Source of the DNA: Coriobacteriia bacterium
GTDB taxonomy: Bacteria > Actinomycetota > Coriobacteriia > Anaerosomatales > SLCP01
Reading direction: 5' to 3'
DNA: 40,880 nt
NCBI GenBank assembly: GCA_019429145.1
Contig: JAHYJI010000008.1
Span: 1-40,880, forward strand
The notes under the pieces were generated by a model that had not been told where the DNA came from, did not search any database, and saw only the letters and a program-made list of their open reading frames with translations. A program made the position numbers and the translations under genes. Shown piece by piece: positions 8,384 to 38,935 of this stretch. Every line of letters starts with the position of its first letter. Position 1 is the stretch's first letter.

Positions 8384-8932
8384 CTAGGCGTCGGGCATGT
8401 CGCTGCGCGTGCGGATCGCCTCGATGATGTCCGCGTCGATCGAGGAGCCCTCGAGCGGCAGAAGCTCGATTCCGCGGGCTGCGAGCAGGTCGAGCACCGC
8501 CGCCACGGCAGCGGGAAGCGCGGCCTCGACTTCGGGTGTCAGCTCGGTCACCCACTGCTCGAGGCTGGCGACCTGCACGCCGATGCAGATCGCCTCGGGC
8601 TGCATCCCCGTCAGCGCTGCCGCTTCGAGCACGTTCGTGAAGCGCGTGTCGTGCAGGGAGTGCATGATCTGCGAGGGAGCGAGTTCCTCGGGGGTGAGCA
8701 GGACGACGGTACCGGGCTCGTGGCCGGTGTTATCGATCGCGTCGACGACGATGATGAAGTCCCGGTCGCGCAAGAGGTTCATGATGCCGAGGCCCATCGT
8801 GCCCGCGTCGATGACCTCGACGTCGTCGGGCAGCTCGAAGCCGCTGAGGAGGAGCTCGGCAACGCGGACGCCCACGCCCTCGTCGGTCATCAGAGGGTTG
8901 CCGATGCCGAGTATGAGAACCCGATCGCTCAC
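8384..8932 (-). CDS. Hydrogenase maturation protease (HupD/HyaD/HybD family)
   Basis: A 182-residue endopeptidase that cleaves the C-terminal peptide of a [NiFe]-hydrogenase large subunit after nickel insertion. Seen are the family start VLILGIGNPLMTDEGVG with Glu18, VVDAID with Asp64 and SLHD with His94, which correspond to the nickel-sensing residues of HybD. Translation starts at GTG 8932, six bases after the radical SAM stop. Its probable substrate is the large subunit encoded at 11154-12800, where cleavage after the final His would release 20 residues. Since that subunit contains selenocysteine, this would be a protease matched to a [NiFeSe] enzyme. Confidence 0.92.
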   Translation of the reverse strand: MSDRVLILGIGNPLMTDEGVGVRVAELLLSGFELPDDVEVIDAGTMGLGIMNLLRDRDFIIVVDAIDNTGHEPGTVVLLTPEELAPSQIMHSLHDTRFTNVLEAAALTGMQPEAICIGVQVASLEQWVTELTPEVEAALPAAVAAVLDLLAARGIELLPLEGSSIDADIIEAIRTRSDMPDA

Positions 8933-8938
8933 GGTTGT

Positions 8939-10270
8939 CTACACCGCAGCGGCGCGCTGCGGCTCGGTGCGAGGCACGCTACACGGCTCGGCCTCGATGA
9001 GGAGCATACGCTCGTCGGGCGGCAACTCGTCACGGGCGTGGTCCCTCAGATCGTTCGAGGTCGCGAGGGTTTCCCGCATCATGACCATGAGCAGGTAGCG
9101 ACCCTTCTCGGTGAGCGTGATGAACTCTCCGTCGTCGCCGGCGATGCCGCCGGCAGCGCGCATGAAGGCGAGCTCGGCGGCCAGTCCCCGCTCGACCGGG
9201 ATTCCGAAGTCGCGCTCGAATCGCTTCTTGTCGAGCTTCAGGCCGAAGAGGTCCGTGACAAACCGATATCGCCGCATCGCCGTCTTCGAGTAGGGGTTAC
9301 CCGCTTTGGCAACGGACATCTGACCCGCGTCGATCCGGGCGATGTAGTCGCGCAGGGAGAAGGTGTTGCCGAAGATGCGCCCATCAAGAAAGGAGAGCGC
9401 TCCCGAGCCGACACCGACGTACTCCCCGTAGTCGACGATGTACTCGTCGATCATGGCGTCTGTTTCGCGCGAGTAGGTCCACGCCGACGTCGGCTGGAAA
9501 TCAGGCGAGAGGCTCTCGGCGATGATGCGGTAGTAGACGGCCTCGCGTGCGTAGTCGATGTGGCCGACCTGGCGTGCGAGCTCGGCACGGGTGCGCGGGG
9601 ACGCCATAAGCGGGTAGAACGTCGTCTGGTTTGCACCGGACTGCTTAAGGAGCTCTATGTCACGCGCGAGCATCTCCTCTGTCTGCGAGGGGAAGTTGAA
9701 GATGAGATCGACGTTGAGCGAGTGGAACTGGCCGGCGACCGAGTTGATGTGCCCGAAGATCTCCTCGCCGCTGCCGTACTTGTCGTAACGGTCGACCTGT
9801 CGCAGTATCCCGTCGTCGAAGCTCTGGATGCCGACGGACAGCCGCTGAACGCGCTCTTTGAGGACTGAGACGAGTTCCGGTCCCAGGTGGTTAGGGCTCG
9901 TCTCGCTGGAGACCTCCTCGATCGAGAAGAGGTCGCGCGCAAGGTCGATGGTCTCGGCGAGTTCGTCCAGAAGGATGGTGGGAGTGCCGCCTCCGATGTA
10001 GAGGGAGGGAAAGTCGTAGCCGAGGTCTGCGACCATATGCATCTCGCGACGGAGACGCTTGAAGTACTCGCGGGCTCGCTGCTCCTGGAACAGGTAGCGG
10101 TTGAACGAGCAGTACAGACAGAGACGCTCGCAGAAGGGGACGTGTGCGTAGAGGACGTACCCGTGTCCCGGCCGAGGTCCGGGGACCGACTCCATGTCGA
10201 CCGGCTCCTGGTGCAGGTACTGTTTGTTGAGCACTCTGAGGGCGCCGGTGACGATCCGTTCAGACAGCAT
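8939..10270 (-). CDS. Radical SAM protein of the HemN/HemW (coproporphyrinogen III oxidase-like) family
   Basis: A 443-residue radical SAM enzyme. The cluster motif is C-x3-C-x2-C (Cys47, Cys51, Cys54) followed by S-F, where true HemN has a fourth cysteine, so it is nearer HemW and the HutW/ChuW group. Other landmarks are LYIGGGTPT near 105 and RLSVGIQSFDDGIL near 150. HemW relatives are haem chaperones, ChuW-type relatives open haem anaerobically, and HemN makes protoporphyrinogen. Which applies here is undecided. ATG 10270 is preferred over a longer frame from 10315 because AAAGGA precedes it at good spacing. It heads the minus-strand group with the hydrogenase protease. Confidence 0.85.
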   Translation of the reverse strand: MLSERIVTGALRVLNKQYLHQEPVDMESVPGPRPGHGYVLYAHVPFCERLCLYCSFNRYLFQEQRAREYFKRLRREMHMVADLGYDFPSLYIGGGTPTILLDELAETIDLARDLFSIEEVSSETSPNHLGPELVSVLKERVQRLSVGIQSFDDGILRQVDRYDKYGSGEEIFGHINSVAGQFHSLNVDLIFNFPSQTEEMLARDIELLKQSGANQTTFYPLMASPRTRAELARQVGHIDYAREAVYYRIIAESLSPDFQPTSAWTYSRETDAMIDEYIVDYGEYVGVGSGALSFLDGRIFGNTFSLRDYIARIDAGQMSVAKAGNPYSKTAMRRYRFVTDLFGLKLDKKRFERDFGIPVERGLAAELAFMRAAGGIAGDDGEFITLTEKGRYLLMVMMRETLATSNDLRDHARDELPPDERMLLIEAEPCSVPRTEPQRAAAV

Positions 10271-10417
10271 GCAGATCCTTTCGTGCGCGCGACGACCTTG
10301 CTGGTTCACTCGCAAGTAGTGCGGACTCGGCGTCCGGGCACGTACCCCGATACTCTACCGCATTACGGCGTGTCTGGCGTGATGTCGAACGGCGGCTCCG
10401 CGGCCGGTTGCAAGAAG

Positions 10418-10447
10418 CAAGGCCCCGGACGTGCGTCCGGGGCCTTG
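10418..10447 (-). terminator. Terminator of the hydrogenase operon
   Basis: A perfect 13-bp stem (10418-10430 with 10435-10447) with a four-base loop lies 28 bases after the cytochrome stop. On the minus strand it is followed by CTTCTTG. It separates the hydrogenase operon from the radical SAM gene. Confidence 0.8.
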
Positions 10448-10475
10448 CCGCTCAGACAGAACGCCAAGAGGGACC

Positions 10476-11153
10476 CTAGTGACCGGATCCTCCGATGACC
10501 TTGCCGTCTGCGTCGAACCGCAGGCCTTCCTCCTCTTTCCACGCGAAGATCAAGCGGGAAGGAGCGACGCCTTCGACGTTGGCCAGGTAGGCGTGGACGG
10601 CTGTGAACAGGATGAAGACCCACATGATGTAGTAGTGGATGATCCGCATGTTCATCTGCCCGCCGACCCAGTCAGTACCTGCCGCGAAGAAGGCTGCATC
10701 CATGAAGGGTGCGTAGATCGCGAACCCGGTGTAGGCGGCTGCGAGCGTCAGCGGGATCGTGACGATGTAGGCGATCTTCTGGAGAACGCCGTACTTCGCC
10801 CCGATCGGATGGTCCTTCTTCAGGAACAGGTAGTACTTGAGCCACGCGCCGAGCTGGTGGCGGTTGAGCTTCTGCGGCAGCCAGTTCTTGATGTCCGTCT
10901 CGACCTCACGCGTGCCCAGGCGCGTCGCCGACTTGACGAAGAACGCGGCGACGATGCGCACGAACAGGTTGATGAGGATCACGTACATGAAGAAGAAGTG
11001 CATGCCACGGGCCACTCCCATGAAGTTCGCAAAGAACGGGTAGTGGATGTAGAAGCCCGAGAATGCGAGTGCCACCATCGAGATCAGGTTGATCCAGTGC
11101 GTGAACACGAAGATCAGCGGATGGGCCTCACGGTAGTGTGCAGGATGCGACAT
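10476..11153 (-). CDS. Hydrogenase b-type cytochrome subunit
   Basis: A 225-residue membrane cytochrome b of the HyaC/HydC type that takes electrons from the exported hydrogenase into the membrane, presumably to a quinone. Four to five hydrophobic helices are visible, at roughly 13-36, 48-72, 120-150 and 168-192. Candidate haem ligands are His19, His52, His173 and His187. The ATG follows the large-subunit TAG directly (TAGATG). Its ribosome site (GGGGGTGAGG) lies inside the C-terminal coding extension of the large subunit that is read only if the TGA is recoded, so translation of the two genes may be coupled. Confidence 0.9.
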   Translation of the reverse strand: MSHPAHYREAHPLIFVFTHWINLISMVALAFSGFYIHYPFFANFMGVARGMHFFFMYVILINLFVRIVAAFFVKSATRLGTREVETDIKNWLPQKLNRHQLGAWLKYYLFLKKDHPIGAKYGVLQKIAYIVTIPLTLAAAYTGFAIYAPFMDAAFFAAGTDWVGGQMNMRIIHYYIMWVFILFTAVHAYLANVEGVAPSRLIFAWKEEEGLRFDADGKVIGGSGH

Positions 11154-12800
11154 CTACCTCACCCCCATCGGCTTCGTGTAGACAGTTGCTTCCTTGCCGG
11201 TTGTCGGTTCAATCACGTGAACCGCGCACCCTACTCAAGGATCGAAGCTGCGTGCGATACGCGCGGCTTCAAGCGGCCGCTCGACTTCGATGATCGGCGT
11301 ACCGACAAGCGCCTCCTCCATCGGGCCACGAACGCCCCCGTCGTCGCGGGACGAGCAGTCCCAGGTCGAAGGGGTGATGACCTGATAGCGAGCGATCTTG
11401 CCGCCCTGGATGTCGATGAAGTGTCCGAGTGCACCGCGCGGCGCCTCCCAGAGGCCTGCGCCCATGCCTTCGTCCACGTCGTGGGGCTCGAAGAACTTGG
11501 AGTCTCCACCAGCGACAGCCCCGATGAGCTCGTTGACCCATTCGAGCGACCAGTCGGAGACGACCTTGGTCTCGAGGTTGCGAGCCGCGACACGGCCGAG
11601 CAGTGAGACGAGGACCTCCGGACGTCCGGCGGCACCGAGTGCTTCCAGAGCGCCGTTGACGAGGTCCTGGACAGGCTGCACGCCACGCAGGTAGGCGACG
11701 AGCATGCGCGAGAGAGGACCTGCCTCCATCGGCGCGCCGTCGTAGCGCGGCGCCTTGACCCACGAGTACTGGTCGTCGACGTTGTACTCCGAGAAGTTCG
11801 CATCCGCTTCGCCTGCGGAGGGATGCAGTCCCGTGGCCGAGTCGTACCATGACCTCTGAACGTCCTCGGTGAGGACAGAGGCGTCTGCATCGGCGACGGT
11901 GAGACCCTGTGCGACCTTGATGACGCCTGCGGGCATGTAGCGGTTGTTGGCCTCGAAGGACTCGTCGTTGAACACACCCCACGACAGGAAGTTGCCATGG
12001 CCTCCGCCGTATCCCAGCGCACCCGCGTAGAAGGGTGCAATGGCGAGCGTATCGGGGATCATGGTGTTGGTGACCCACTCGTTGAGCTTGACGAAGCGGA
12101 ACAGGATGTCGTCGAGCTTCTGCTCGGTGGGCATGAACGTCGTGCCGCCGGGCAGCGAGGTCATGAAGTGCGGGAACTTCCCGCCCATGATCGCGATGAT
12201 CTCGGCTGCGACGGCCTGCATCTCGAGCGCCTCAAGGTAGTGGGCGACTCCGATCAGGTGCAGCTCGGCAGGCATGTCCTCCGCGTAGGCCGGGTGCCCG
12301 AACCATCCGTTGGTGAAGATGGAGAGCTGGCCATTGTCGACGAACGCCTGGAGACGCTTGGCAACCGCACCGAAGTCGGAGACGCCGGTACCGGCGGCCT
12401 GCGCGAGCGCGTAGGTGTCGGCGATATCGGCCGACAGTGCCTTGACCGGATCCACGTAGTCCAGTGCAGCCAGCGTGTAGAACCACAGGATGTGGCTGTG
12501 GATGTACTGGGCGGCCTCGATGAGGTTGCGTACGATGCGGGCGTTGTTGGGGATGGTGATGCCGAGCGCGTCCTCGGTAGAGGCGGTCGACGCGTGCCCA
12601 TGCGAGATCGGGCAGACTCCACAGATGCGCTGTACCACGTAGAACGCGTCGGAGGGACGGCGGTCGAGGAGGATCTTCTCCATGCCCCGGTACAATCCGC
12701 CTGAAACCCAGGCGTCGGTTACGACGCCGTTATTGACCTCGACCTCGACACGAAGATGTCCTTCGATCCGGGTCAACGGGTCGACAACTGAGCGAGCCAC
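11154..12800 (-). CDS. [NiFeSe] hydrogenase large subunit with in-frame TGA read as selenocysteine
   Basis: The catalytic subunit of a group 1 uptake hydrogenase (H2 to 2H+ plus 2e-), 548 residues with recoding. The N-terminal nickel motif is R-I-C-G-V-C-P-I-S-H (Cys60, Cys63). The frame appears to stop after ARSFDP at TGA 11235-11237, in the middle of the C-terminal nickel motif. Reading on gives U-VGCAVH (Sec522, Cys525, His528), a 20-residue tail starting VIEPTTGKE and a TAG at 11154-11156. The position of U is the terminal Ni ligand used by characterised [NiFeSe] enzymes. Start is GTG 12800, with GGGAGG upstream, sharing one base with the small-subunit stop (TAGTG). Cleavage after His528 by the protease at 8384 is expected. 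Sec insertion machinery is not in the window. Confidence 0.93.
11205..11224 (-). promoter_or_regulatory. Candidate bacterial SECIS hairpin
   Basis: On the minus strand CGGTTCA (11224-11218) pairs perfectly with TGAACCG (11211-11205) around the loop CGTGAT. The stem starts 10 bases after the TGA and the loop begins 17 bases after it, with G as the second loop base. This agrees with the known distance range and apical G of bacterial SelB-binding elements. It lies wholly inside the predicted extension. Confidence 0.7.
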
Positions 12801-13966
12801 TATTTACCGCCTCCCTTCTGCATCCGCTTCTTGTCGTGCGCTTTCATCTCCTCGTAGGGAGCACCGCCGTCCATGCGTCCGGTGACCTTCATCCCGACCG
12901 CGTGCAGACCGAGACCCAGTGCCGCGGCACCGGCTACCACACCCGCAACGACGCCGGGCTGGGTGTTGCCGACGCTGGGCAGGGGCAGATCGCGGTGACG
13001 GTTGAGGAACGGGGCGCCCACATCGACCCAGTTGAGGTTCCCGCACCCGATGCACGGCGCGCCAGACTCGACACACCAGCTCGTGCGGCGGTTCCACCGG
13101 ACGATCGGGCAGTTGGTGTAGGTCTGGGGGCCCTTGCAGCCTACCTTGTACAGGCAGTAGCCGAGAGCCTCCTCCTCGGTGCCGAACTCGTTGACGAAGT
13201 TGCCGTTCTCGAAGTGGCCGCGACGGGGGCAGTTGTCGTGAATGGTCTGACCGAAGATGTACTTCGGACGTCCCCAGTCATCGAGCTTGTCGAGGATCGC
13301 GCCGCTTTCCAGCGAGCCGAGCAGGAGCACGTCGACGACGATGGCGACCAGCCATTCGGGATTGACCGGGCAGGTCGGCAGGTTGACGACGGGGGTGGTG
13401 ATGCCCTTTGACTCGAGGTAGGGCTTCACGCCGGTCGCGTCGGCGGGGTTGGGGTTGGCCATGACGAATCCGCCGTCGACCGCACAGGAACCCACCGCGA
13501 CGATAGCCGCAGCGTTCGGTGCAGCGTGATCGAGCTCCTCGAGCCCGGTCTTTCCGCCGATCCGCAGTGCATTGCCGTCGAAGCCCTGCATGACCGAGCC
13601 CTCGTAGATCAGTATGTAGCCGGGCTCTTCGAAGACGGCCTCTGCTGCAGCGAGTGCATCCTCGCCCATCGCCATGGAGAGCGTCTCCATGAAGTCGATC
13701 GAGAGCAGATCGAGCACGATGGTCGCCACGTCGGGCGTGTCCACCTGCGCGATCGACTCCGTGCACCCGGTACACGCGCCGCCGTTAAGCCAGACAGCCG
13801 GCTTCAGCTTCGCGCCGTGGTTCACGGCCGCCGCGATCTGCGGGACGAACGACTCGGACAGTCCCAACAGCGCCGCGATCGAGCCGCAGTACTTGAGGAA
13901 ATCGCGACGAGACACGCCTCTCGCAGCGAGTAGGTCGTAGATCGCGCCGTGGTCCTCATGCGCCAT
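12800..13966 (-). CDS. [NiFeSe]-type hydrogenase small subunit, Tat-exported
   Basis: The 388-residue electron-transfer subunit. It begins with a Tat signal, S-R-R-D-F-L-K at 19-25, which exports the folded heterodimer. Cluster ligands can all be placed: proximal Cys65, Cys68, Cys161, Cys199; distal His243, Cys246, Cys271, Cys277; medial Cys286, Cys298, Cys305, Cys308. Standard group 1 enzymes have Pro at the position of Cys298 and a [3Fe-4S] medial cluster, so three [4Fe-4S] clusters are predicted here, as in [NiFeSe] enzymes. A hydrophobic segment at 338-358 could anchor it next to the cytochrome. ATG 13966 was chosen for AGGAGG at 13980-13975 and the signal peptide; a longer frame from 14011 lacks these. 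Confidence 0.93.
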   Translation of the reverse strand: MAHEDHGAIYDLLAARGVSRRDFLKYCGSIAALLGLSESFVPQIAAAVNHGAKLKPAVWLNGGACTGCTESIAQVDTPDVATIVLDLLSIDFMETLSMAMGEDALAAAEAVFEEPGYILIYEGSVMQGFDGNALRIGGKTGLEELDHAAPNAAAIVAVGSCAVDGGFVMANPNPADATGVKPYLESKGITTPVVNLPTCPVNPEWLVAIVVDVLLLGSLESGAILDKLDDWGRPKYIFGQTIHDNCPRRGHFENGNFVNEFGTEEEALGYCLYKVGCKGPQTYTNCPIVRWNRRTSWCVESGAPCIGCGNLNWVDVGAPFLNRHRDLPLPSVGNTQPGVVAGVVAGAAALGLGLHAVGMKVTGRMDGGAPYEEMKAHDKKRMQKGGGK

Positions 13967-15736: not shown

Positions 15737-15868
15737 GACGTGCTCCTTCATCCGAGAGTGGCATACGGGCGCCATGGTATCACGGGCCGGGCATTGACCG
15801 AGCATACCGGGAGGGGTATGCTCCGGCTATCACACGTATACCCATGAGGGTATCGAAGTCGAGTGATA

Positions 15869-15884
15869 CGTGAAGTGGGTCACA
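15869..15884. promoter_or_regulatory. Crp-like palindrome, site 2
   Basis: CGTGAAGTGGGTCACA lies 29 bases before the start codon of the GlcD/HdrD gene and matches site 1 (14221) at 13 of 16 positions. The position between promoter and ribosome site would suit repression better than classical activation. Confidence 0.45.
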
Positions 15885-15913
15885 AGAACCCCGTTCGAGA
15901 AGGAGCGATCTTG

Positions 15914-18900
15914 ATGGCACCGGTCAGCCAGCATGTGAGGGAGTCCCTGCAGGAGATCTTCGGCGATCGGGTGCGAACCGACCGCGTCGAGCGGAAGATG
16001 TACTCGTTCGACATCGGGGCGATGCCCCGGCTGGTGAAGCCGGTGGTACCAGCGGGCCTGGCAGGTGCGGTAGTGCGCCCACAGAGCGAGGCCGAGGTGG
16101 TCGCGCTGCTCGAACTCGCTTCACGCTCGGGCTTCGCCGTTGTGCCGCGCGGCTGGGCGACCTCCGGCTACGGCGGGGTCCTGCCGCGCGCGGGGGCCGT
16201 TGTCGCCGACATGTCCGGCATGAACCGGATCGGTACGGTCGACCACGCGAACATGACCGTGACCGTCGAGCCCTCGGCTATCTGGCAGGACATCGACCGG
16301 GAGCTTGCCAAGGACGGTTTGACGCTGAGGCTCTATCCGTCGTCGACGCCGAGCTCGGGCGCGGCCGGGTGGCTTGCGCAGGGCGGCGCCGGCTTCGGAT
16401 CGTACGAGTACGGCACCTTCAAGGAGAACGTCGTCTCAGCGCGGGTCGTGCTCCCCGGTGGCGAGGTCCGTGAATTTGCCGGTAGCGACCTGGAGCGCTA
16501 CGTGGCGGACGCCGAGGGCATCACCGGTATCATCACCGAGCTCACGTTCCGGATCCGGGCTCTCGAGCCGGAGGTCCATCGCCTCTTTGCGTTCCCGGAT
16601 GCGCGCTCGCTGGCCGGTATGCTCGAGGCGGTCTCGCGCGCCGGGCTTCCGTTGTGGTCGGTCACCTTCCTCAACCCGGCGTCTGTCTCGCTCAAGAAGC
16701 AGCTGCCTCACCGGCACGGCCATCCCTACGAGGAGGCGCATCCGCACGTAGCGCCGCACCTGCCCGAATCCTATCTGGCTGTCGTGGCATACCCCGAGTC
16801 TCGCGCGCCACAGATCGACGAGGGGCTCGGGGAGATCGTGCGGACAATCGGGGGTACGGATCTGGGACCGGAGGCTGCCGAGCACGAATGGGAGATGCGC
16901 TTCTCACCGATGCGGCTGAAGCGCATCGGTCCCTCGCTCGTGCCGACCGAGGTTGTGGTCCCGCTCGAGTCGCTCGCAGACGTGCTAGCCCAGATCGACA
17001 CCCGTGTCCGGCAGCCGTTCATCCTCGAGGGGATGCAGGCGAAGGGCGACCGGATCGTCCTGCTCGGATTCATCCCGCACGACGAGCGCTCGTTCGCGTT
17101 CAATCTTGCCTTCGCCCTCTCACTCTCGGTGATCCGTATCGCCAAGCAGCACGGTGGCTCTGCGTACTCGACCGGGTTGTACTTCCGCCGCGAGGCCGAA
17201 AGTGTTCTCGGCAGGGACAAGGTCAGGGCGCTATCGGCGTTCAAAGCCGAGGTCGATCCGCGGGGGATCATGAACCCCGGCAAGGTCCTCGGCCGCGGTG
17301 CGCTTGACGTGTTGATGGGAACTGCTGCAGCGTTCGAACCGTTCGTCAGGCCGATCGCGAACGCGGCCACACCGCCGGCCCGCAACGGAGATCTCCGCGA
17401 TGTGCGCGGTGTTCCGGGTGACGTCGCGTTCATGGCGTACGCGTGTGCGCGGTGCGGCTACTGCGTGCCCACGTGCGAGCAGTACAGCGGGAGGGGATGG
17501 GAGTCCCAGTCGCCGCGCGGGAAGTACGCCTACCTGCGTGAGGTCATCGAAGGGCGCGAGACATTCGACCGCACCGCGGTGGATACCTTCCTCGTCTGTA
17601 CGACGTGCGAGGTCTGCAACACGCGATGCCAGCTGCAGCTTCCGATCGAGCACAACTGGATGGCGATGCGTGGGAAGCTTGTGCACGAGCAGAAGCTCGG
17701 AACCTTCCCGCCGTTCGAGATGATGGCGGCCTCGTTGCGCGGCGAAAACGACATCTGGGCCGGCAAGCGTGAGAACCGCGCGAACTGGGTGCCCGAGGAT
17801 ATCAAGCCCAAGCTCAAGGAGAGCGGCGAGCTGATGTACTTCGCGGGCTGCACGGCAAGCTACGTCGAACACGACGTTGCCGAGGCGAGCGTGCGCCTTC
17901 TCACCGACGCCGGCTACGACATCTCCTACATGGGCACCGACGAGGCGTGCTGCGGCATTCCGATGAAGGTCGCCGGCAAGTGGGACGTCTTCGAGGAGAT
18001 CTACGAGCACAACACCTCCGAAGCACGTAAGCGCGGTGCTAAGACCATCATCACCTCGTGCCCGGCTTGCGCGCTGGTATGGAAGGAGCTCTACGCGAAC
18101 CTGGCCGCCGAGCGCGGAGATGCCTACGAGTTCGAGGTGAAACACTACTCCGAGCTGGTGAGCGAAGCGCTCGCTGACGGGCGGCTCGAACTCGCAAATC
18201 CGGTCGAGGGCCGCATCACCTTCCACGACTCGTGCCATGCAGGGCGCGCTCAGGGGCTCTACGAGCCGCCTCGCGACATGCTCAAGGCGATTCCGGGCGT
18301 CGACTACGTCGAGATGGAGCACAACCGCGAAGAGGGCTACTGCTGCGGCTCGGTGCTGACGCTCGTCGGCGAGATCGAGGTCGCTCCCGTGCTCGGAAAG
18401 CAGCGGCTGCAGGAGGCTGTCGACGTCGAGGCGGACACGGTGGTCGCACTCTGTCCCTGCTGTCAGGTCCAGCTGCGCGACAGCAACATCAAGAACGACC
18501 TCGGCCTGAAGATCGACGATCTGTCCCGTGTGGTGGCCCAGGCCGCCGGTTACGACATCCCCGAGACGACCGAGCGAGCGATGTACTACTGGGGGTACTT
18601 CGACAAGTTCATCATCCTCATGCAGCCCGAGAACATGGCAGCGCTCATGGAGCGCATCTTCCCGCAGATGATTAACGCGATGCCGGCGGGCATGAAGCCG
18701 ATGATGCTCGGCATGGGCCGGATACCCGGAGGCCCGAAGCTCATGGAGAAGATGATGCCGCTGATGTTTCCCCTGCTGGTGGACGGCATCATGAAGAAGG
18801 TCATGCCCGACCTGATCGCGGCGGTCCAGGAGTACATCGGTCCCATGCCCGATGACATGGAGGAGCTCGTCCCCGACCTGCTGCCTCGCACGATGGAATC

Positions 18901-19003
18901 GCTGATGCCGACCTACCTGCCCGAGCTCATACCGCACCTAACGCCGCAGCTGATCGAGTGCATACGTCAGGGCTGTCGCGAACAGGCGCCTGCCGCGTCA
19001 TAG
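15914..19003 (+). CDS. FAD/iron-sulfur oxidoreductase, GlcD-HdrD fusion with Met-rich tail
   Basis: A 1029-residue protein. Residues 1-480 are a VAO-type FAD domain (PRGWATSGYGG near 75, GWLAQGGAGFGSYEYGT near 153) as in D-lactate and glycolate dehydrogenases. Two ferredoxin-type motifs follow (CARCGYCVPTC near 511 and CTTCEVCNTRC near 561). Two CCG domains come next (FAGC...DEACCG near 645-680; DSCHAGRA...GYCCGS near 773-811) as in HdrD/GlpC, which bind [4Fe-4S] clusters. It probably oxidises a 2-hydroxy acid and passes electrons to a quinone or thiol carrier. Residues 896-1029 are an unusual tail with 19 methionines. AAGGAG at 15899 sets ATG 15914. Substrate unknown. Confidence 0.88.
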   Translation: MAPVSQHVRESLQEIFGDRVRTDRVERKMYSFDIGAMPRLVKPVVPAGLAGAVVRPQSEAEVVALLELASRSGFAVVPRGWATSGYGGVLPRAGAVVADMSGMNRIGTVDHANMTVTVEPSAIWQDIDRELAKDGLTLRLYPSSTPSSGAAGWLAQGGAGFGSYEYGTFKENVVSARVVLPGGEVREFAGSDLERYVADAEGITGIITELTFRIRALEPEVHRLFAFPDARSLAGMLEAVSRAGLPLWSVTFLNPASVSLKKQLPHRHGHPYEEAHPHVAPHLPESYLAVVAYPESRAPQIDEGLGEIVRTIGGTDLGPEAAEHEWEMRFSPMRLKRIGPSLVPTEVVVPLESLADVLAQIDTRVRQPFILEGMQAKGDRIVLLGFIPHDERSFAFNLAFALSLSVIRIAKQHGGSAYSTGLYFRREAESVLGRDKVRALSAFKAEVDPRGIMNPGKVLGRGALDVLMGTAAAFEPFVRPIANAATPPARNGDLRDVRGVPGDVAFMAYACARCGYCVPTCEQYSGRGWESQSPRGKYAYLREVIEGRETFDRTAVDTFLVCTTCEVCNTRCQLQLPIEHNWMAMRGKLVHEQKLGTFPPFEMMAASLRGENDIWAGKRENRANWVPEDIKPKLKESGELMYFAGCTASYVEHDVAEASVRLLTDAGYDISYMGTDEACCGIPMKVAGKWDVFEEIYEHNTSEARKRGAKTIITSCPACALVWKELYANLAAERGDAYEFEVKHYSELVSEALADGRLELANPVEGRITFHDSCHAGRAQGLYEPPRDMLKAIPGVDYVEMEHNREEGYCCGSVLTLVGEIEVAPVLGKQRLQEAVDVEADTVVALCPCCQVQLRDSNIKNDLGLKIDDLSRVVAQAAGYDIPETTERAMYYWGYFDKFIILMQPENMAALMERIFPQMINAMPAGMKPMMLGMGRIPGGPKLMEKMMPLMFPLLVDGIMKKVMPDLIAAVQEYIGPMPDDMEELVPDLLPRTMESLMPTYLPELIPHLTPQLIECIRQGCREQAPAAS

Positions 19004-19048: not shown

Positions 19049-19747
19049 ATGAGAAGCACCGTTGTGCCCAAGAGCGCAGCGGGGAAGCTCGCTGCATTCC
19101 CGCTGTTCTCCACGTTGCAGACGTCCGACCTTGAGGAACTCGCGGGCATGCTTCGCTCCCGGCGATACTCCAAGGGTGTCTTCGTCGCATCGCGGGGTGA
19201 ACCCTGCACCGCGATGTATCTGCTCGCAGCCGGCCGCGTCAAGCAGACCATTCCCTCGCCGGACGGCAAGGAGTTGGTGCTGGGCCACCTCGACGCTCCC
19301 GCGCACTTCGGCGAGGCGAGTCTGGTGGAGACGCAGCCTCACGTGGCAGACGTCGTCGCGCTCACAGAAGCCGAGGTACTGACGCTCGACGCGCGCGAAC
19401 TCGAGCACGCGATCCATATCCAGCCACGCCTTGCGCTCTCTCTGATCGCCGCTCTCTCGTCACGACTGCGGGAGGCCGTCGAGCGGCTGGAGAGCCTGAC
19501 ATTTTACGATGCCTCGCACCGCGTCATGCGGGTCTTGCTCAACATCGCCTCGGCGCGCCAGAGCATGACGGGTGCGTCGACGATCTCCGGTTTCACCCAC
19601 TACGACATCGCGACACTCGCCGGAACATCGCGCGAGACCGCGAGCAGGGTGATCTCCTCGCTGGGCCGCGATGGCACTGTTGCGGTGCGTGGGAGAACGA
19701 TCCTCGTCGATCTCGAGAAGCTGCGTGCGGAACTCGCTTCGCGGTAG
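19049..19747 (+). CDS. Crp/Fnr-family transcriptional regulator
   Basis: A 232-residue regulator with a cyclic-nucleotide-type sensor fold (about 15-125), a dimer helix and a winged helix at 155-230. The recognition helix reads T-S-R-E-T-A-S-R (Arg195, Glu196, Arg200), which matches the Arg-Glu-Arg contacts by which Crp reads GTGA. Fnr-type cysteines are absent; only Cys53 is seen. It does not look like an oxygen-sensing Fnr. It lies 45 bases after the GlcD/HdrD gene, whose upstream region carries a GTGA-N8-TCAC-type palindrome, so autocontrol of this group is plausible. The ribosome site before ATG 19049 is weak; GTG 19064 is an alternative. Confidence 0.92.
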   Translation: MRSTVVPKSAAGKLAAFPLFSTLQTSDLEELAGMLRSRRYSKGVFVASRGEPCTAMYLLAAGRVKQTIPSPDGKELVLGHLDAPAHFGEASLVETQPHVADVVALTEAEVLTLDARELEHAIHIQPRLALSLIAALSSRLREAVERLESLTFYDASHRVMRVLLNIASARQSMTGASTISGFTHYDIATLAGTSRETASRVISSLGRDGTVAVRGRTILVDLEKLRAELASR

Positions 19748-33683: not shown

Positions 33684-33833
33684 GGGTCTGGGAGCCAGCG
33701 CACGCATGGGGTGCGAACACGCGGAGGTGTGACCCGGGGCCGGCTTGGCCGTCCCGGAGATTGCAGGATTGCAGCCCTCGTGGTCGAAGCCCATTCTATT
33801 CGCCGGATGTGATTGACGAGGGGACGACACGCA

Positions 33834-35135
33834 GTGGCCACCCGTGCCTTCAATGGAGGGATACACCCCGCAGACCGTAAGGACGCGACCAGCGCCCTGG
33901 CGGTGACGCGCGCGCGTGTGCCGCAGGTCTTGCGGGTTCCGCTCTCCCAGCATCTCGGTGCGCCATGTGCTCCGACTGTCGGGAAGGGCGACCGCGTGCT
34001 ACGTGGTCAGGTCATAGGGGATGTCGAGGCGATGGTGAGCGCGCCCGTTCACTCCCCGGTCACCGGTGAGGTCGTGGAGATCGGCCCGGTGCTTGTGGCC
34101 TCCGGTGCCCGCGTCCAGGCAGTTTCCATCGCTCCCGACGAGGTCCAGGAGTTCGATCGGTTCGAGCCTGTCGAGCGTGGCGCAACTGTTCCGGAGACGG
34201 TCCGGGCCGCAGGCATCGTCGGCATGGGCGGCGCGGCGTTTCCCACCGCGGTGAAACTCCAGCCGCCCAAGGGCATGGAGGTGCGCACTCTCATCCTCAA
34301 CGGGTGCGAGTGCGAGCCGTACCTCACCTGCGATCACCGGACGATGCTCGAGTATCCCGAGCGGGTGGTCCGGGGAGCGGAGCTGATCGCTTCGGCGGTC
34401 GGCGCGACGCGCACCGTCATCGCGGTCGAGGACAACAAACGCGACGCAGCTGCCGCTCTCGAAGAGAGGGCGGGCGCATCTGTCGAGGTCATGGTCGTGC
34501 CGACGCGCTACCCGCAGGGCGCCGAGAAGCAGCTTATCTGGGCGGTGATCGGCTCGGAGGTGCCGCACGGCAAGTTGCCGGCGGCAACCGGAGCGCTCGT
34601 GCACAACGTGAGCACGGCCGCGGCAGTCGCCGATGCGGTCGACCGCGGTCGCCCGCTCATGGAGCGGGTGGTGACCGTCACCGGCAACGTCCGCAACCCC
34701 GGTAACTACCTCGCGCTCCTGGGCACCCCGGTCGCCGATCTCATCGAGGCGGCCGGCGGTCTTCACGGCGAGTACGGTCGCATCATCGCCGGGGGCCCGA
34801 TGACCGGGATGGCACTGGCGGACCTTTCGGTCCCTGTCGTCAAGGGAATGGGCGGGATCGTCGTGCTCGATCCCGGCGACACGGCGCCTGCAGTCCACGG
34901 CGATCAGCCGTGCATCCGCTGTTCGCGCTGTTCCGATGCGTGCCCGATGATGCTCGAGCCGTTCGCCATCGGAATCTACGCGAACAGGGCCGACTGGGAC
35001 GGCACGCAGCGGTTCCACGCACTTGACTGTATCGAGTGCGGCTGTTGCAGCTACGTGTGCCCGACCCGCCGACCGCTCGTGCAGTTGATACGTCGGGCCA
35101 AGCAGGTCCTGCTGGAGAAGGGGGCTTCGCTGTGA
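33834..35135 (+). CDS. rnfC: Rnf complex subunit RnfC
   Basis: The 433-residue peripheral subunit of the ion-translocating ferredoxin:NAD+ oxidoreductase. It begins with the family motif GGIHP, has the NADH/FMN-site segment GMGGAAFPTAVKL near 128 and ends with two [4Fe-4S] motifs, CIRCSRCSDACP near 361 and CIECGCCSYVCP near 400. It is the NAD(H)-facing input/output module in studied complexes. Start GTG 33834 follows GAGGGGA. It heads an operon in the order C-D-G-E-A-B with overlaps or very short gaps. A possible hairpin at 33734-33757 separates it from ndk. Confidence 0.96.
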   Translation: MATRAFNGGIHPADRKDATSALAVTRARVPQVLRVPLSQHLGAPCAPTVGKGDRVLRGQVIGDVEAMVSAPVHSPVTGEVVEIGPVLVASGARVQAVSIAPDEVQEFDRFEPVERGATVPETVRAAGIVGMGGAAFPTAVKLQPPKGMEVRTLILNGCECEPYLTCDHRTMLEYPERVVRGAELIASAVGATRTVIAVEDNKRDAAAALEERAGASVEVMVVPTRYPQGAEKQLIWAVIGSEVPHGKLPAATGALVHNVSTAAAVADAVDRGRPLMERVVTVTGNVRNPGNYLALLGTPVADLIEAAGGLHGEYGRIIAGGPMTGMALADLSVPVVKGMGGIVVLDPGDTAPAVHGDQPCIRCSRCSDACPMMLEPFAIGIYANRADWDGTQRFHALDCIECGCCSYVCPTRRPLVQLIRRAKQVLLEKGASL

Positions 35136-36142
35136 GTGCCGGCGCCACCCCTGCCCCGATGAAGGTAGCAGCATCCCCGCACATCGCCGCGCGCGAGAAC
35201 GTGACTCACATCATGCTGTGGGTGGTCGCCGCACTTGCCCCCGCGACCCTGTGGGGCGTCTGGAACATGGGCATGGTCGCCGTCGTGCTCCTTGCGTCGT
35301 GCATCGGCGGTTCGGTAGGCACGGAGTGGCTCTGGAACAGGCTCGCCAAACGCACGCAGACCCTGTGGGACGGCAGCGCGCTCGTCACCGGCCTCCTGCT
35401 CGCGCTGGCGCTGCCTCCCCGCACGCCGTGGTGGATGGGCCTTGCCGGCGGCATCGTCGCCATCGGCCTGGCGAAGATGCTCTTCGGCGGTCTTGGCTGG
35501 AACCTCTTCAATCCCGCGCTGGTCGGCAGGGCGTTTCTCTCCGTCTCGTGGATGGGCGTGCTGGCGGACGTGCGCCCGTTCCCCGGCGGCTGGTACTCTG
35601 CGATCGACGTTCCCGCAACCGGCACCCTGGATGCGATCAACGGGGCGACCCGCCTGGCCATCGCGGCTGCCGACCGTGCTGCCGACGGCGGATACGGAAT
35701 CGATCTGACCCGCTACTACGAGCCGCTTCTCCTGCGCAACCTGGAAGGGTCGTTCGGCGAGGTCTCGGGGCTCTTGCTCATCGCGGGTGGACTCCTTCTG
35801 ATCGCGAAGCGAATCATCGACTGGCGGATCCCTGCGGGATACATCGCCACGGTCGCTCTGATGTCGTGGGCGTTCGGCTCCGATCCGCTCTTCAACGTCC
35901 TTGCCGGCGGGGTGCTTCTCGGAGCCTTCTTCATGGCTACCGACTACGTCACCTCTCCGATGACACGCACCGGGCGCCTGGTGTTCGGGTGCGGCTGCGG
36001 CCTGTTCAACGTGGTCGTGCGGTTCTTCGGACCGATGCCAGAGGCCACTACCTTCGCGATCCTCTTCATGAACGGGCTCGTGCCCCTGATCGACCGCGGG
36101 TTCGCGCCGAGGACGTTCGGGTGGGTGAAGCGCCGTGGCTAA
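35132..36142 (+). CDS. rnfD: Rnf complex subunit RnfD
   Basis: A 336-residue polytopic membrane subunit with about nine to ten helices that carries a covalently bound FMN and takes part in ion transport. Conserved segments are SPHIAARENVTHIM at the start, GWNLFNPALVGRAF near 125 and ATDYVTSPMTRTGRLVFG near 269. The usual FMN-attachment signature [S/T]-G-A-T appears as DAINGATRLA (about 169-178), with Asn at its first position. Start GTG 35132 overlaps the rnfC stop by four bases, with GGAGAAGGGGG upstream. Confidence 0.94.
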   Translation: MSAGATPAPMKVAASPHIAARENVTHIMLWVVAALAPATLWGVWNMGMVAVVLLASCIGGSVGTEWLWNRLAKRTQTLWDGSALVTGLLLALALPPRTPWWMGLAGGIVAIGLAKMLFGGLGWNLFNPALVGRAFLSVSWMGVLADVRPFPGGWYSAIDVPATGTLDAINGATRLAIAAADRAADGGYGIDLTRYYEPLLLRNLEGSFGEVSGLLLIAGGLLLIAKRIIDWRIPAGYIATVALMSWAFGSDPLFNVLAGGVLLGAFFMATDYVTSPMTRTGRLVFGCGCGLFNVVVRFFGPMPEATTFAILFMNGLVPLIDRGFAPRTFGWVKRRG

Positions 36143-36734
36143 GCGGGCAGCATCGACACCACTCAACATGATCGGGGCCGTGCTCGCCACGTGCCTGGTG
36201 GCGGCGAGCGCGTTGACCGTTACCTACGAGCTGACCCGCGAGCGCATCATCGAGCAGGAGCGGGCCGCCGAGCGTGCCGCGCTCGATGCGGTACTCCCGG
36301 GCACCGGAAGCATCGAGTCGGCCGAGGAGCTCGTGGCATCGGCCACGGAAGCAGCGGGCAGCGTCACGCTGCAGGGAGTCTACCGGGCCTACGACGCGGC
36401 GGGAGCGCTCTCCGGATGGGGCGTGCGGGTCGCGCCGCGTGGTTACTCGGGTCCGGTAAGTATGGTTGTGGGATTGGATAGAGATGGGTCAGTACTCGGT
36501 GTCAGTATCATCACTATGAGCGAGACACCTGGTCTGGGGACCAAGATCGTGACCCAGGAGGGCTGGATCGAGCAGTTCGTGGGGTGGCAGGGAGCCGACA
36601 TCGACGCTTCGGCACGCGAGTTCGACGCGATCGCCGGCGCGACGCGCTCCTCTGCCGCCGTTCGCAACGGCGTGACGGCCGCCGGCCGTGTCTACGCCGA
36701 GGTGCTCTCGGCTGAAGAGGGAGGTGCGCAATGA
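36135..36734 (+). CDS. rnfG: Rnf complex subunit RnfG
   Basis: A 199-residue subunit with one N-terminal membrane helix (about 10-32) and an exported FMN-binding domain. The covalent-flavin motif appears as DAIAGATRSSAAVRNG near 166-181, with the acceptor threonine present and Ala before GAT where Ser or Thr is more usual. It passes electrons between RnfB/RnfA and RnfD in models of the complex. GTG 36135 overlaps the rnfD stop by eight bases. Confidence 0.94.
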   Translation: MAKRAASTPLNMIGAVLATCLVAASALTVTYELTRERIIEQERAAERAALDAVLPGTGSIESAEELVASATEAAGSVTLQGVYRAYDAAGALSGWGVRVAPRGYSGPVSMVVGLDRDGSVLGVSIITMSETPGLGTKIVTQEGWIEQFVGWQGADIDASAREFDAIAGATRSSAAVRNGVTAAGRVYAEVLSAEEGGAQ

Positions 36735-37390
36735 GGGAGTGGATCGAGGTCTTCAAGCGCGGCATCTCCATCGACAACCCTCTGACCGTGTTGATGATCG
36801 GCCTGTGCGCGACACTCGCCGTCTCCACCAAGCTCGAGGGCGCGCTGTTCATGGGGCTGGCCGTCATCTTCGTGCTGGGGATGTCGAGCATCATCGTCTC
36901 GTCGATCCGCTCGCTCGTTCCCGAGCAGGTCCGCATCCCGGTGTTCATCGTCATAATCGCATCGTTCGTCACCGTGGTGGATCTCACCATGAAGGCGTTC
37001 CTGCCGGACATCTACACCTTCCTCGGCGTGTGGATCCCGCTGATAGTCGTGAACTGCATGATCCTCGGGCGGGCCGAGGCGTTCTCCTACCACCAGCCGG
37101 TCAGACTGGCGATCGCTGACGGCCTCGGTATGGGACTGGGCTTCAGCATCGTGATCGTGTTGCTCGCCGCCATACGCGAACTCTTCGGGAGTGGTGAGAT
37201 CGTCTTCCTGGGCGCGCGTCTCATCGCGCTTCCCGGGTGGTACCGGCCGCCGGGAGTCCTTCTGTTGTTCCCGGGTGCGTTTCTCGTGTTCGGGTTCATC
37301 GTCGCGCTTGCGAAGTGGTACAACACCCGCACCTCGGGGCGCGTGGTGCAGACCGACGCACACTGCACGATCGAAGAGGGGGTGAGGTAG
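36731..37390 (+). CDS. rnfE: Rnf complex subunit RnfE
   Basis: A 219-residue integral membrane subunit with about six helices, related to RnfA and NqrD. Seen are NPLTVLMIGLCATLAVST near 17, the conserved FLGVWIPLIVVNCMILGRAEAF near 97 with a membrane cysteine (proposed [2Fe-2S] ligand shared with RnfA), and DGLGMGLGF near 130. The start overlaps the rnfG stop by four bases (ATGA). Confidence 0.95.
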   Translation: MREWIEVFKRGISIDNPLTVLMIGLCATLAVSTKLEGALFMGLAVIFVLGMSSIIVSSIRSLVPEQVRIPVFIVIIASFVTVVDLTMKAFLPDIYTFLGVWIPLIVVNCMILGRAEAFSYHQPVRLAIADGLGMGLGFSIVIVLLAAIRELFGSGEIVFLGARLIALPGWYRPPGVLLLFPGAFLVFGFIVALAKWYNTRTSGRVVQTDAHCTIEEGVR

Positions 37391-37392
37391 GC

Positions 37393-38013
37393 ATGGAGAT
37401 CCTCCAGCACTTCGCCTTGCTGCTCGTCGGCGGTGCGCTCGTCAACAACATCCTCCTGACCCGATTCATCGGGCTGTGCCCGTTCTTCGGTGTCTCGAAC
37501 TCGCTCGATACGAGCCTGGGTATGGCGGGCGCCGTGGTGTTCGTGATGACGCTCGCGACCACTGCCACCTGGGTGTTCTGGAACGTGCTGCTCGCTCCGC
37601 TCGGGGTAGGCGACTTCCTCTACATCCCGGCGTTCATCCTCGTGATCGCCGCGCTCGTGCAGTTCGTAGAGATGTACCTGCGCAAGGCGAGCCCGTCCCT
37701 CTACCGCTCGCTCGGCATCTTCCTGCCGCTGATCACCACCAACTGTGCCGTGCTGGCGACGGCGACCGAGTCGGTCCGCCCCGGCTTCTTCAAGATGGGG
37801 GTCGAGTACGGGTTCACCTTCGGCGAGGCCCTCGTCTACACGGTCGGGGTGTCTCTCGGCTTCGGTATCGCGCTTCTGACCTTCGCCGCGCTGCGCGAAC
37901 GACTCGAGGTCGCTCCCGTGCCTGACGTGATGCGCGGGACGCCTATGGCATTCATCACCGCGGGCCTTCTGTCCTTTGGCTACGTGGGCCTCGCCGGATT
38001 GTTCGGTTTGTGA
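37393..38013 (+). CDS. rnfA: Rnf complex subunit RnfA
   Basis: A 206-residue integral membrane subunit with six predicted helices, paired with RnfE. It has NNILLTRFIGLCPFFGVS near 19 and GIFLPLITTNCAVLATA near 109; the two cysteines (GLCPF and TNCAV) are the proposed ligands of an intramembrane [2Fe-2S] cluster. It lies two bases after rnfE. Confidence 0.95.
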   Translation: MEILQHFALLLVGGALVNNILLTRFIGLCPFFGVSNSLDTSLGMAGAVVFVMTLATTATWVFWNVLLAPLGVGDFLYIPAFILVIAALVQFVEMYLRKASPSLYRSLGIFLPLITTNCAVLATATESVRPGFFKMGVEYGFTFGEALVYTVGVSLGFGIALLTFAALRERLEVAPVPDVMRGTPMAFITAGLLSFGYVGLAGLFGL

Positions 38014-38026
38014 GAAAGGTGAGCGT

Positions 38027-38935
38027 GTGGACCCGTTGCTCGTCATAAAGGCCGTCGCTGCGTTGAGCGTGATCGGCCTCGCGGCTGCCGCGATGCTCAC
38101 CGCGGCTTCCCGCAAGTTCAGCGTGGAGGTCGACCCGAAGGTGGAGCGGGTCTTGAGCGTGTTGCCCGGAGCCAACTGCGGTGCCTGCGGCAACCCTTCA
38201 TGCTTCGCTGCCGCCGAGGCCCTGGTCGAGGGCACGATTCCCGTCACCGCGTGCACCGCAGGCGGTCAGGCGGTTGCGGACGGGGTCGCCGACGCCCTTG
38301 GCGTGGAGAAGTGCGCCGTAGCATCGATCGTGTCGTTGCGCCACTGCGGCGGGGGGCGCGCCGCCTCTCGCTCCTTCGAGTACAGCGGCGTGCTGGAGTG
38401 CAACTCCGTCGCTCGTTTGGCTGGTGGCGACCTCACATGCCCGGCAGGCTGTTTCGGCTACGGAGACTGCGCGCGGGCGTGCCCCTTCGGTGCGATCACG
38501 ATGGACAGCCGCGACCTTCCCGTTATCGACCTGGACCGGTGCACGGGCTGCGAGGTCTGCGTCCGCGAGTGCCCCCGCGGGGCAGCAGGTCTGCTCGCCA
38601 TGGTTCCCGAGGATGCGGCCATCGCCGTGCGCTGCAACTCGCATGACAAGCCCCGCGCACGCAAGGACTACTGCTCCATGTGCTGCATCGCATGCAAGAA
38701 GTGTGAGAAGGCGTGCCCTGCCGATGCGATCCACGTGGTCGACCTGCTGGCGGTCGTCGACTTCGACAAATGCACCGAGTGCGGCATGTGCGTCGATGTC
38801 TGTCCGCAGGAGTGCATCGATCTCACCGGCCGTCAGGCGATCGCGCCTGCACGTTCTCTCGACGGTCGCGGGCCGAAGGCCGACGGGTTCGCGCCGCTCG
38901 TCGCGGGGCCTTCCGCAGGAGATGAGCAAACATGA
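38027..38935 (+). CDS. rnfB: Rnf complex subunit RnfB
   Basis: A 302-residue iron-sulfur subunit, the usual contact for ferredoxin. A membrane helix (about 4-26) is followed by the C-x2-C-x4-C-type cluster domain GANCGACGNPSCFAAAEAL near 52 and then several [4Fe-4S] motifs (CFGYGDCARACP, CTGCEVCVRECP, CIACKKCEKACP, CTECGMCVDVCP). The four ferredoxin-type motifs and extended length resemble the multi-cluster RnfB forms of anaerobes. Start GTG 38027 follows AAAGG. The stop overlaps the next gene by four bases. Confidence 0.95.
   Translation: MDPLLVIKAVAALSVIGLAAAAMLTAASRKFSVEVDPKVERVLSVLPGANCGACGNPSCFAAAEALVEGTIPVTACTAGGQAVADGVADALGVEKCAVASIVSLRHCGGGRAASRSFEYSGVLECNSVARLAGGDLTCPAGCFGYGDCARACPFGAITMDSRDLPVIDLDRCTGCEVCVRECPRGAAGLLAMVPEDAAIAVRCNSHDKPRARKDYCSMCCIACKKCEKACPADAIHVVDLLAVVDFDKCTECGMCVDVCPQECIDLTGRQAIAPARSLDGRGPKADGFAPLVAGPSAGDEQT

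Follow-up and report, generated by a model that had tools for sequence, protein, structure and literature searches.

The window analysed here, a 40,880-nucleotide stretch of a Coriobacteriia genome, encodes a hydrogenase whose small subunit carries Cys at a medial-cluster position where standard group 1 enzymes have Pro, and it raises the question of whether this residue tells anything about selenium at the Ni site. A review gives the rule that the medial cluster is [4Fe-4S] in [NiFeSe] and [3Fe-4S] in [NiFe] hydrogenases (PMC10779653). Because the two differences co-occur under this rule, the low O2 inhibition and the H2-production bias of [NiFeSe] enzymes could stem from either. The earlier note on this DNA counted the medial Cys as a third, separate argument that the enzyme is of the [NiFeSe] type.

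The small subunit and its cluster ligands

The hydrogenase small subunit (388 aa) is encoded at 12800..13966 on the minus strand, as are all genes and codons of the operon described below. Profile searches matched it to TIGR00391 (301 bits against a cut-off of 179.5) and to both PF14720 and PF01058. The ATG at 13966, on which the residue numbering of the earlier note is based, is the likely start, because AAGGAGGT sits directly 5' of it. The protein has a Tat motif, SRRDFLK (residues 19-25, 13892..13912; TIGR01409 match), and a C-terminal membrane-anchor helix at residues 337-361 (12884..12958) was indicated by helix prediction and hydropathy. An AlphaFold model (pLDDT 78, pTM 0.72) resembled solved small subunits, with TM-scores, normalised to the window small subunit as target, of 0.86 to 1e3d and 0.83 to the [NiFeSe] structures 6z8o and 3ze9. 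The medial loop was modelled with modest confidence (pLDDT ~53-72).

Codon checks and alignments placed Cys286 (13109-13111), Cys298 (TGT, 13073-13075), Cys305 (13052-13054) and Cys308 (13043-13045) around the medial cluster (13043..13111), as the earlier note had proposed; its range of 13039-13110 cuts one base off the Cys286 codon, which is trivial. In phmmer alignments with PDB sequences Cys298 faces Pro in the small subunits of D. vulgaris Miyazaki (1h2a), D. fructosovorans (1yqw) and D. desulfuricans (1e3d), and SFPIQSG is the sequence at this site in both E. coli HyaA and R. eutropha HoxK, consistent with the claim that Cys298 stands at the Pro of that motif. By BLASTP, with HysB letters taken from PDB alignments, the same residue faces the medial Cys of both solved [NiFeSe] small subunits, the HysB proteins of D. 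baculatum and D. vulgaris. Sequence alignment with HysB and with standard [3Fe-4S] small subunits thus puts Cys298 in the medial cluster. Among PDB chains of E. coli Hyd-1, 4gd3 reads SFCIQSG and 6g94 SFPIQSG, and the title of 7odh names MBH-P242C.

The statement that each cluster has four protein ligands also stood. Codons and alignment columns gave Cys65 and Cys68 in a CxxC (13763..13774), Cys161 (13484-13486) and Cys199 (13370-13372) for the proximal cluster, and His243, Cys246, Cys271 and Cys277 (13136..13240) for the distal cluster, and the medial cluster has its four Cys ligands, as a [4Fe-4S] cluster would need. A medial [4Fe-4S] cluster is expected, and is our best prediction, because there are four protein ligands per cluster and because P-to-C exchange at this site turned the medial cluster of E. 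coli Hyd-1 into a [4Fe-4S] cluster (PMC4747160) and likewise converted that of D. fructosovorans (PMC3701524). On the same two grounds the proposal that the Pro-to-Cys change makes this cluster [4Fe-4S] is supported as a prediction. The native cluster could instead be [3Fe-4S], with Cys298 present yet unligated: sequence alone cannot give a cluster type, and the loop beside Cys298 is unlike that of HysB, having one residue more in the BLASTP alignment (SGAPCIGC vs NAVCIGC). We consider this improbable, as virtually all aligned members keep the four medial ligands and the P-to-C variants gained a fourth iron at the very site of Cys298 (PMC4747160).

With a medial [4Fe-4S] cluster, the fourth medial thiolate supplied by Cys298 would give a relay of three [4Fe-4S] clusters, ligated by four Cys (proximal), four Cys (medial) and His plus three Cys (distal). 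Electrons from H2 would then reach cytochrome b and, beyond it, quinone along this relay, with no high-potential [3Fe-4S] step on the way. The cluster type, potentials and electron acceptor given here for the window enzyme are predicted ones.

The first medial ligand (Cys286 column) appeared to be lost in five loci (L332, L336, L340, L343 and L350); this looks like an alignment offset, a Cys lying two residues earlier, and was discounted. One Coriobacteriia small subunit at a contig end (L085, G128:C111) has Ser for the third medial Cys (SGSPSIGC).

Selenocysteine and the hydrogenase operon

With an in-frame TGA read through, the large subunit spans 11154..12800 (PF00374, 541.7 bits). Its start codon overlaps the stop of the small subunit gene, and the next stop after the TGA is the TAG at 11154-11156. 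Read through, the C-terminus is DPUVGCAVHVIEP, and translation, codon check and 65 Sec-type pairs in the class identify the TGA (11235..11237) as Sec522 of DPUVGCAVH, the terminal Ni-ligand position. A SECIS-like hairpin, CGGUUCA-CGUGAU-UGAACCG, folds 10 nt after the UGA (11205..11224). Rfam matched no SECIS family in the window, and the hairpin was judged by folding and stem counts: stem cells were paired in 85% of cases in 83 distinct Sec-type sequences vs 40% in 147 Cys-type sequences, and two-sided stem exchanges were found (CGG/CCG, GCG/CGC, GGG/CCC, CCG/CGG and AGG/CCU). The genes selD, selA, selB and selC lie together in the same genome (L290, C17:46012-51546 of G000).

Because the UGA falls at the Ni-ligand position and is joined by a covarying SECIS-like hairpin and by sel genes, the large subunit is, as read from the DNA, a selenoprotein and the enzyme Sec-type; selenium is presumably inserted at this position. 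The [NiFeSe] type assigned by the earlier note is thus borne out, on these grounds instead of the medial Cys. Of the [NiFeSe] traits, the in-frame UGA with a SECIS-like element for the terminal Ni ligand is present in the sequence, and so are the medial Cys and the ligands for three [4Fe-4S] clusters, but the latter are not a defining trait. An annotation halting at the UGA would drop the C-terminal Ni ligands of the large subunit. The selD gene of this genome also carries an in-frame TGA, and SelD is probably a selenoprotein.

The operon (8384-13966) has the order small subunit, large subunit, cytochrome b, radical SAM protein and maturation protease. The b-type cytochrome subunit (10476..11153) matched PF01292 with 82.3 bits and TIGR02125 with 101 bits, the latter under its cut-off of 121.5, and the hydrogenase maturation endopeptidase (8384..8932) matched PF01750 and, over the cut-off, TIGR00072. 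Between these two genes, and so inside the hydrogenase operon, lies a gene for a HemN-like radical SAM protein (8939..10315; NF006385, 505 bits, cut-off 355).

The window enzyme is a group 1i hydrogenase by its place in the tree, within the group 1 clade of Coriobacteriia, and by its cluster of small subunit, large subunit, cytochrome b and maturation protease genes, the same set as reported in PMC9686372. This clade is group 1i in the literature, and the enzyme shares with that group its class, gene set, Tat signal and membrane anchor (PMC5037454, PMC9686372). Quinone-linked anaerobic H2 respiration by group 1i is putative (PMC5037454). Group 1i is described as [NiFe], whereas the window enzyme and ~60 further class members of its type have an in-frame UGA at the Ni ligand. 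In the classification, only groups 1a, 3a and 3c have [NiFeSe] variants (PMC5037454), and the description of the Anaerosomatales calls its own 1i enzyme [NiFe] (PMC9686372). Since both sources give 1i as [NiFe], and no description of a Sec-type group 1i enzyme was found in the open PMC literature, which does not prove absence, the Sec form seems undescribed within that literature.

With HysAB of D. vulgaris and D. baculatum (1cc1, 2wpn, 3ze6) the enzyme shares Sec at the Ni ligand, the medial Cys and the 4+4+4 ligands. Nevertheless, it groups with the Coriobacteriia clade and not with HysAB. BLASTP identity between HysB and the window small subunit was 33-36%, and scores against the HysAB families NF045520 and NF045518 stayed below the cut-offs (231.5 against 470 bits for HysB, 434.7 against 780 bits for HysA). 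Unlike HysAB, the window enzyme carries a membrane anchor at the C-terminus of its small subunit and comes with a cytochrome b subunit; HysB is not known to have a cytochrome b partner of this kind. The genomes behind the named loci yielded no HysB that passed the curated cut-off. E. coli Hyd-1 and R. eutropha MBH share the anchor and the cytochrome b partner, and their P242C variants (4gd3, 7odh) have Cys at the Cys298 position. The natural Hyd-1 and MBH differ in having Pro, a [3Fe-4S] medial cluster and Cys at the Ni ligand, and are of the O2-tolerant type.

Medial cysteine and selenocysteine across Actinomycetota

Small subunits were paired with neighbouring large subunits from 200 Coriobacteriia and 397 Actinomycetota genomes, 80 named GTDB loci, E. 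coli, plasmid records and a few further genomes. A large subunit was scored Sec if it had an in-frame TGA at the Ni-ligand position of DPxxxCxxH, and Cys otherwise. Among 216 pairs, 82 combined Sec with medial Cys, 75 Cys with medial Cys, 51 Cys with medial Pro and 8 Sec with medial Pro; with sampling centred on Actinomycetota, these proportions do not hold for hydrogenases at large. Medial Cys was present in 107/107 Coriobacteriia pairs, 65 with a Sec and 42 with a Cys large subunit, so Cys298 is not a chance residue. Outside the class there were 33 Cys-type enzymes with medial Cys, and all 8 Sec-type enzymes with medial Pro.

The eight Sec-type enzymes with medial Pro (L163, L164, L165, L166, L313, L320, L327 and L330) are HysAB-like and come from Actinomycetota MAGs, L163 and L164 being labelled Thermoleophilia. 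These [NiFeSe] enzymes run against the usual medial-Cys rule. A stray UGA as artefact was ruled out, as all eight loci keep the full C-terminal peptide and a SECIS-like hairpin and selA was over the curated cut-off in 8/8 genomes.

Given 8 Sec-type enzymes with Pro and 75 Cys-type enzymes with Cys among the 216 pairs, the [NiFeSe] type neither requires medial Cys nor follows from it. The opposite reading, that medial Cys is a [NiFeSe] signature and an independent support for that type, draws on its presence in D. vulgaris and D. baculatum HysB, on the rule as stated in PMC4070099 and PMC10779653, and on a raw association between Sec and medial Cys after dereplication. It is scarcely credible in the face of the 42 Cys-type enzymes of the class and 33 others that have medial Cys and the Sec-type enzymes that have Pro; as a diagnostic it is already refuted by these two dissociating classes. 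The ligand pattern fares no better. The earlier note regarded 4+4+4 ligands as the pattern of [NiFeSe] hydrogenases, but R. eutropha HoxBC, the regulatory hydrogenase, has three [4Fe-4S] clusters like those predicted here and is a Cys-type enzyme (PMC5665086), so a relay of this kind is not special to [NiFeSe]; HoxBC differs from the window enzyme also in being a cytoplasmic sensor. Within Coriobacteriia, where Sec- and Cys-type pairs alike carry it, medial Cys adds nothing to the [NiFeSe] call and is not the third, separate line of evidence that it was taken for.

We are highly confident that the window encodes a membrane-anchored, cytochrome-b-linked respiratory hydrogenase of Coriobacteriia, with a predicted three-[4Fe-4S] relay and a selenoprotein large subunit, in which the medial Cys is lineage-wide and uncoupled from selenium.

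Among Sec-type large subunits, L140 and L124, and also L235, read DPUxxCxxQ, with Gln for the motif-final His. The maturation protease normally cuts after this His. In L280, L284 and L286, near medial-Cys small subunits, the large subunit stops at the His of DPCxxCxxH and has no cleavable C-terminal peptide.

Descent of the two traits

Dereplication at 80% left 44 Sec+Cys, 45 Cys+Cys, 30 Cys+Pro and 4 Sec+Pro representatives, in which Sec and medial Cys were associated (44/4 vs 45/30, odds ratio 7, P = 1e-4, Fisher test ignoring descent). As the test ignores descent, it was set aside as proof of coupling. A tree was built from the concatenated subunits with the trait columns removed, and a second, more careful one from 43 rows with a mixture model; canonical HysB entered only the PDB alignments and is absent from the tree. 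The Sec/Cys label changed 4 times and the medial label 3 times, with the same counts in the mixture-model tree, and the two labels changed on different branches. No coupled change was found among the independent pairs on the tree, which are few and give low power.

The window enzyme grouped with 53 other class representatives in a 54-representative clade (100*; 100/100 in the mixture-model tree). The Cys-type enzymes of gut Coriobacteriia form one clade (100*; 100/98) inside the Coriobacteriia clade, which also holds Sec-type enzymes. The Sec+Pro enzymes are a single clade (100/100) that sits among Sec+Cys enzymes, within a HysAB-like Sec clade of Actinomycetota.

With only 3 to 4 changes, a weak tendency of Sec to go with medial Cys may still be compatible with the tree. 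Sec could be favoured or kept where the relay is all-[4Fe-4S], neither requiring the other, and 44/89 representatives with medial Cys are Sec-type vs 4/34 with medial Pro. We regard such a coupling as rather unlikely, in view of the few independent changes, the clade-biased sampling and an independent-pairs comparison that was underpowered but without a trend. We are confident that evolution can separate selenium at the Ni site from the nuclearity of the medial cluster. All four combinations occur naturally. Among them, Thermoleophilia-like Actinomycetota combine Sec with Pro (predicted [3Fe-4S]), and in a group 1i lineage an invariant, predicted all-[4Fe-4S] relay goes with Sec as well as with Cys.

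The medial Cys itself is ordinary for the lineage; what is of interest is that the two traits are separated in nature. If the two are separable, effects commonly attributed to [NiFeSe] enzymes as a type could be assigned to selenium or to the medial cluster, and natural enzymes that split the traits would make the question testable without mutagenesis. For annotation, medial Cys is no basis for calling a hydrogenase selenium-type.

Elsewhere in the window, on the plus strand, translations read by eye indicate an apparent complete Rnf complex (RnfC, D, G, E, A, B; 33813-38935). A large fusion of FAD-linked oxidase, 4Fe-4S and CCG (heterodisulfide-reductase-like) domains lies at 15863-19003, also on the plus strand, and is adjoined by a Crp/Fnr-like gene at 19049.
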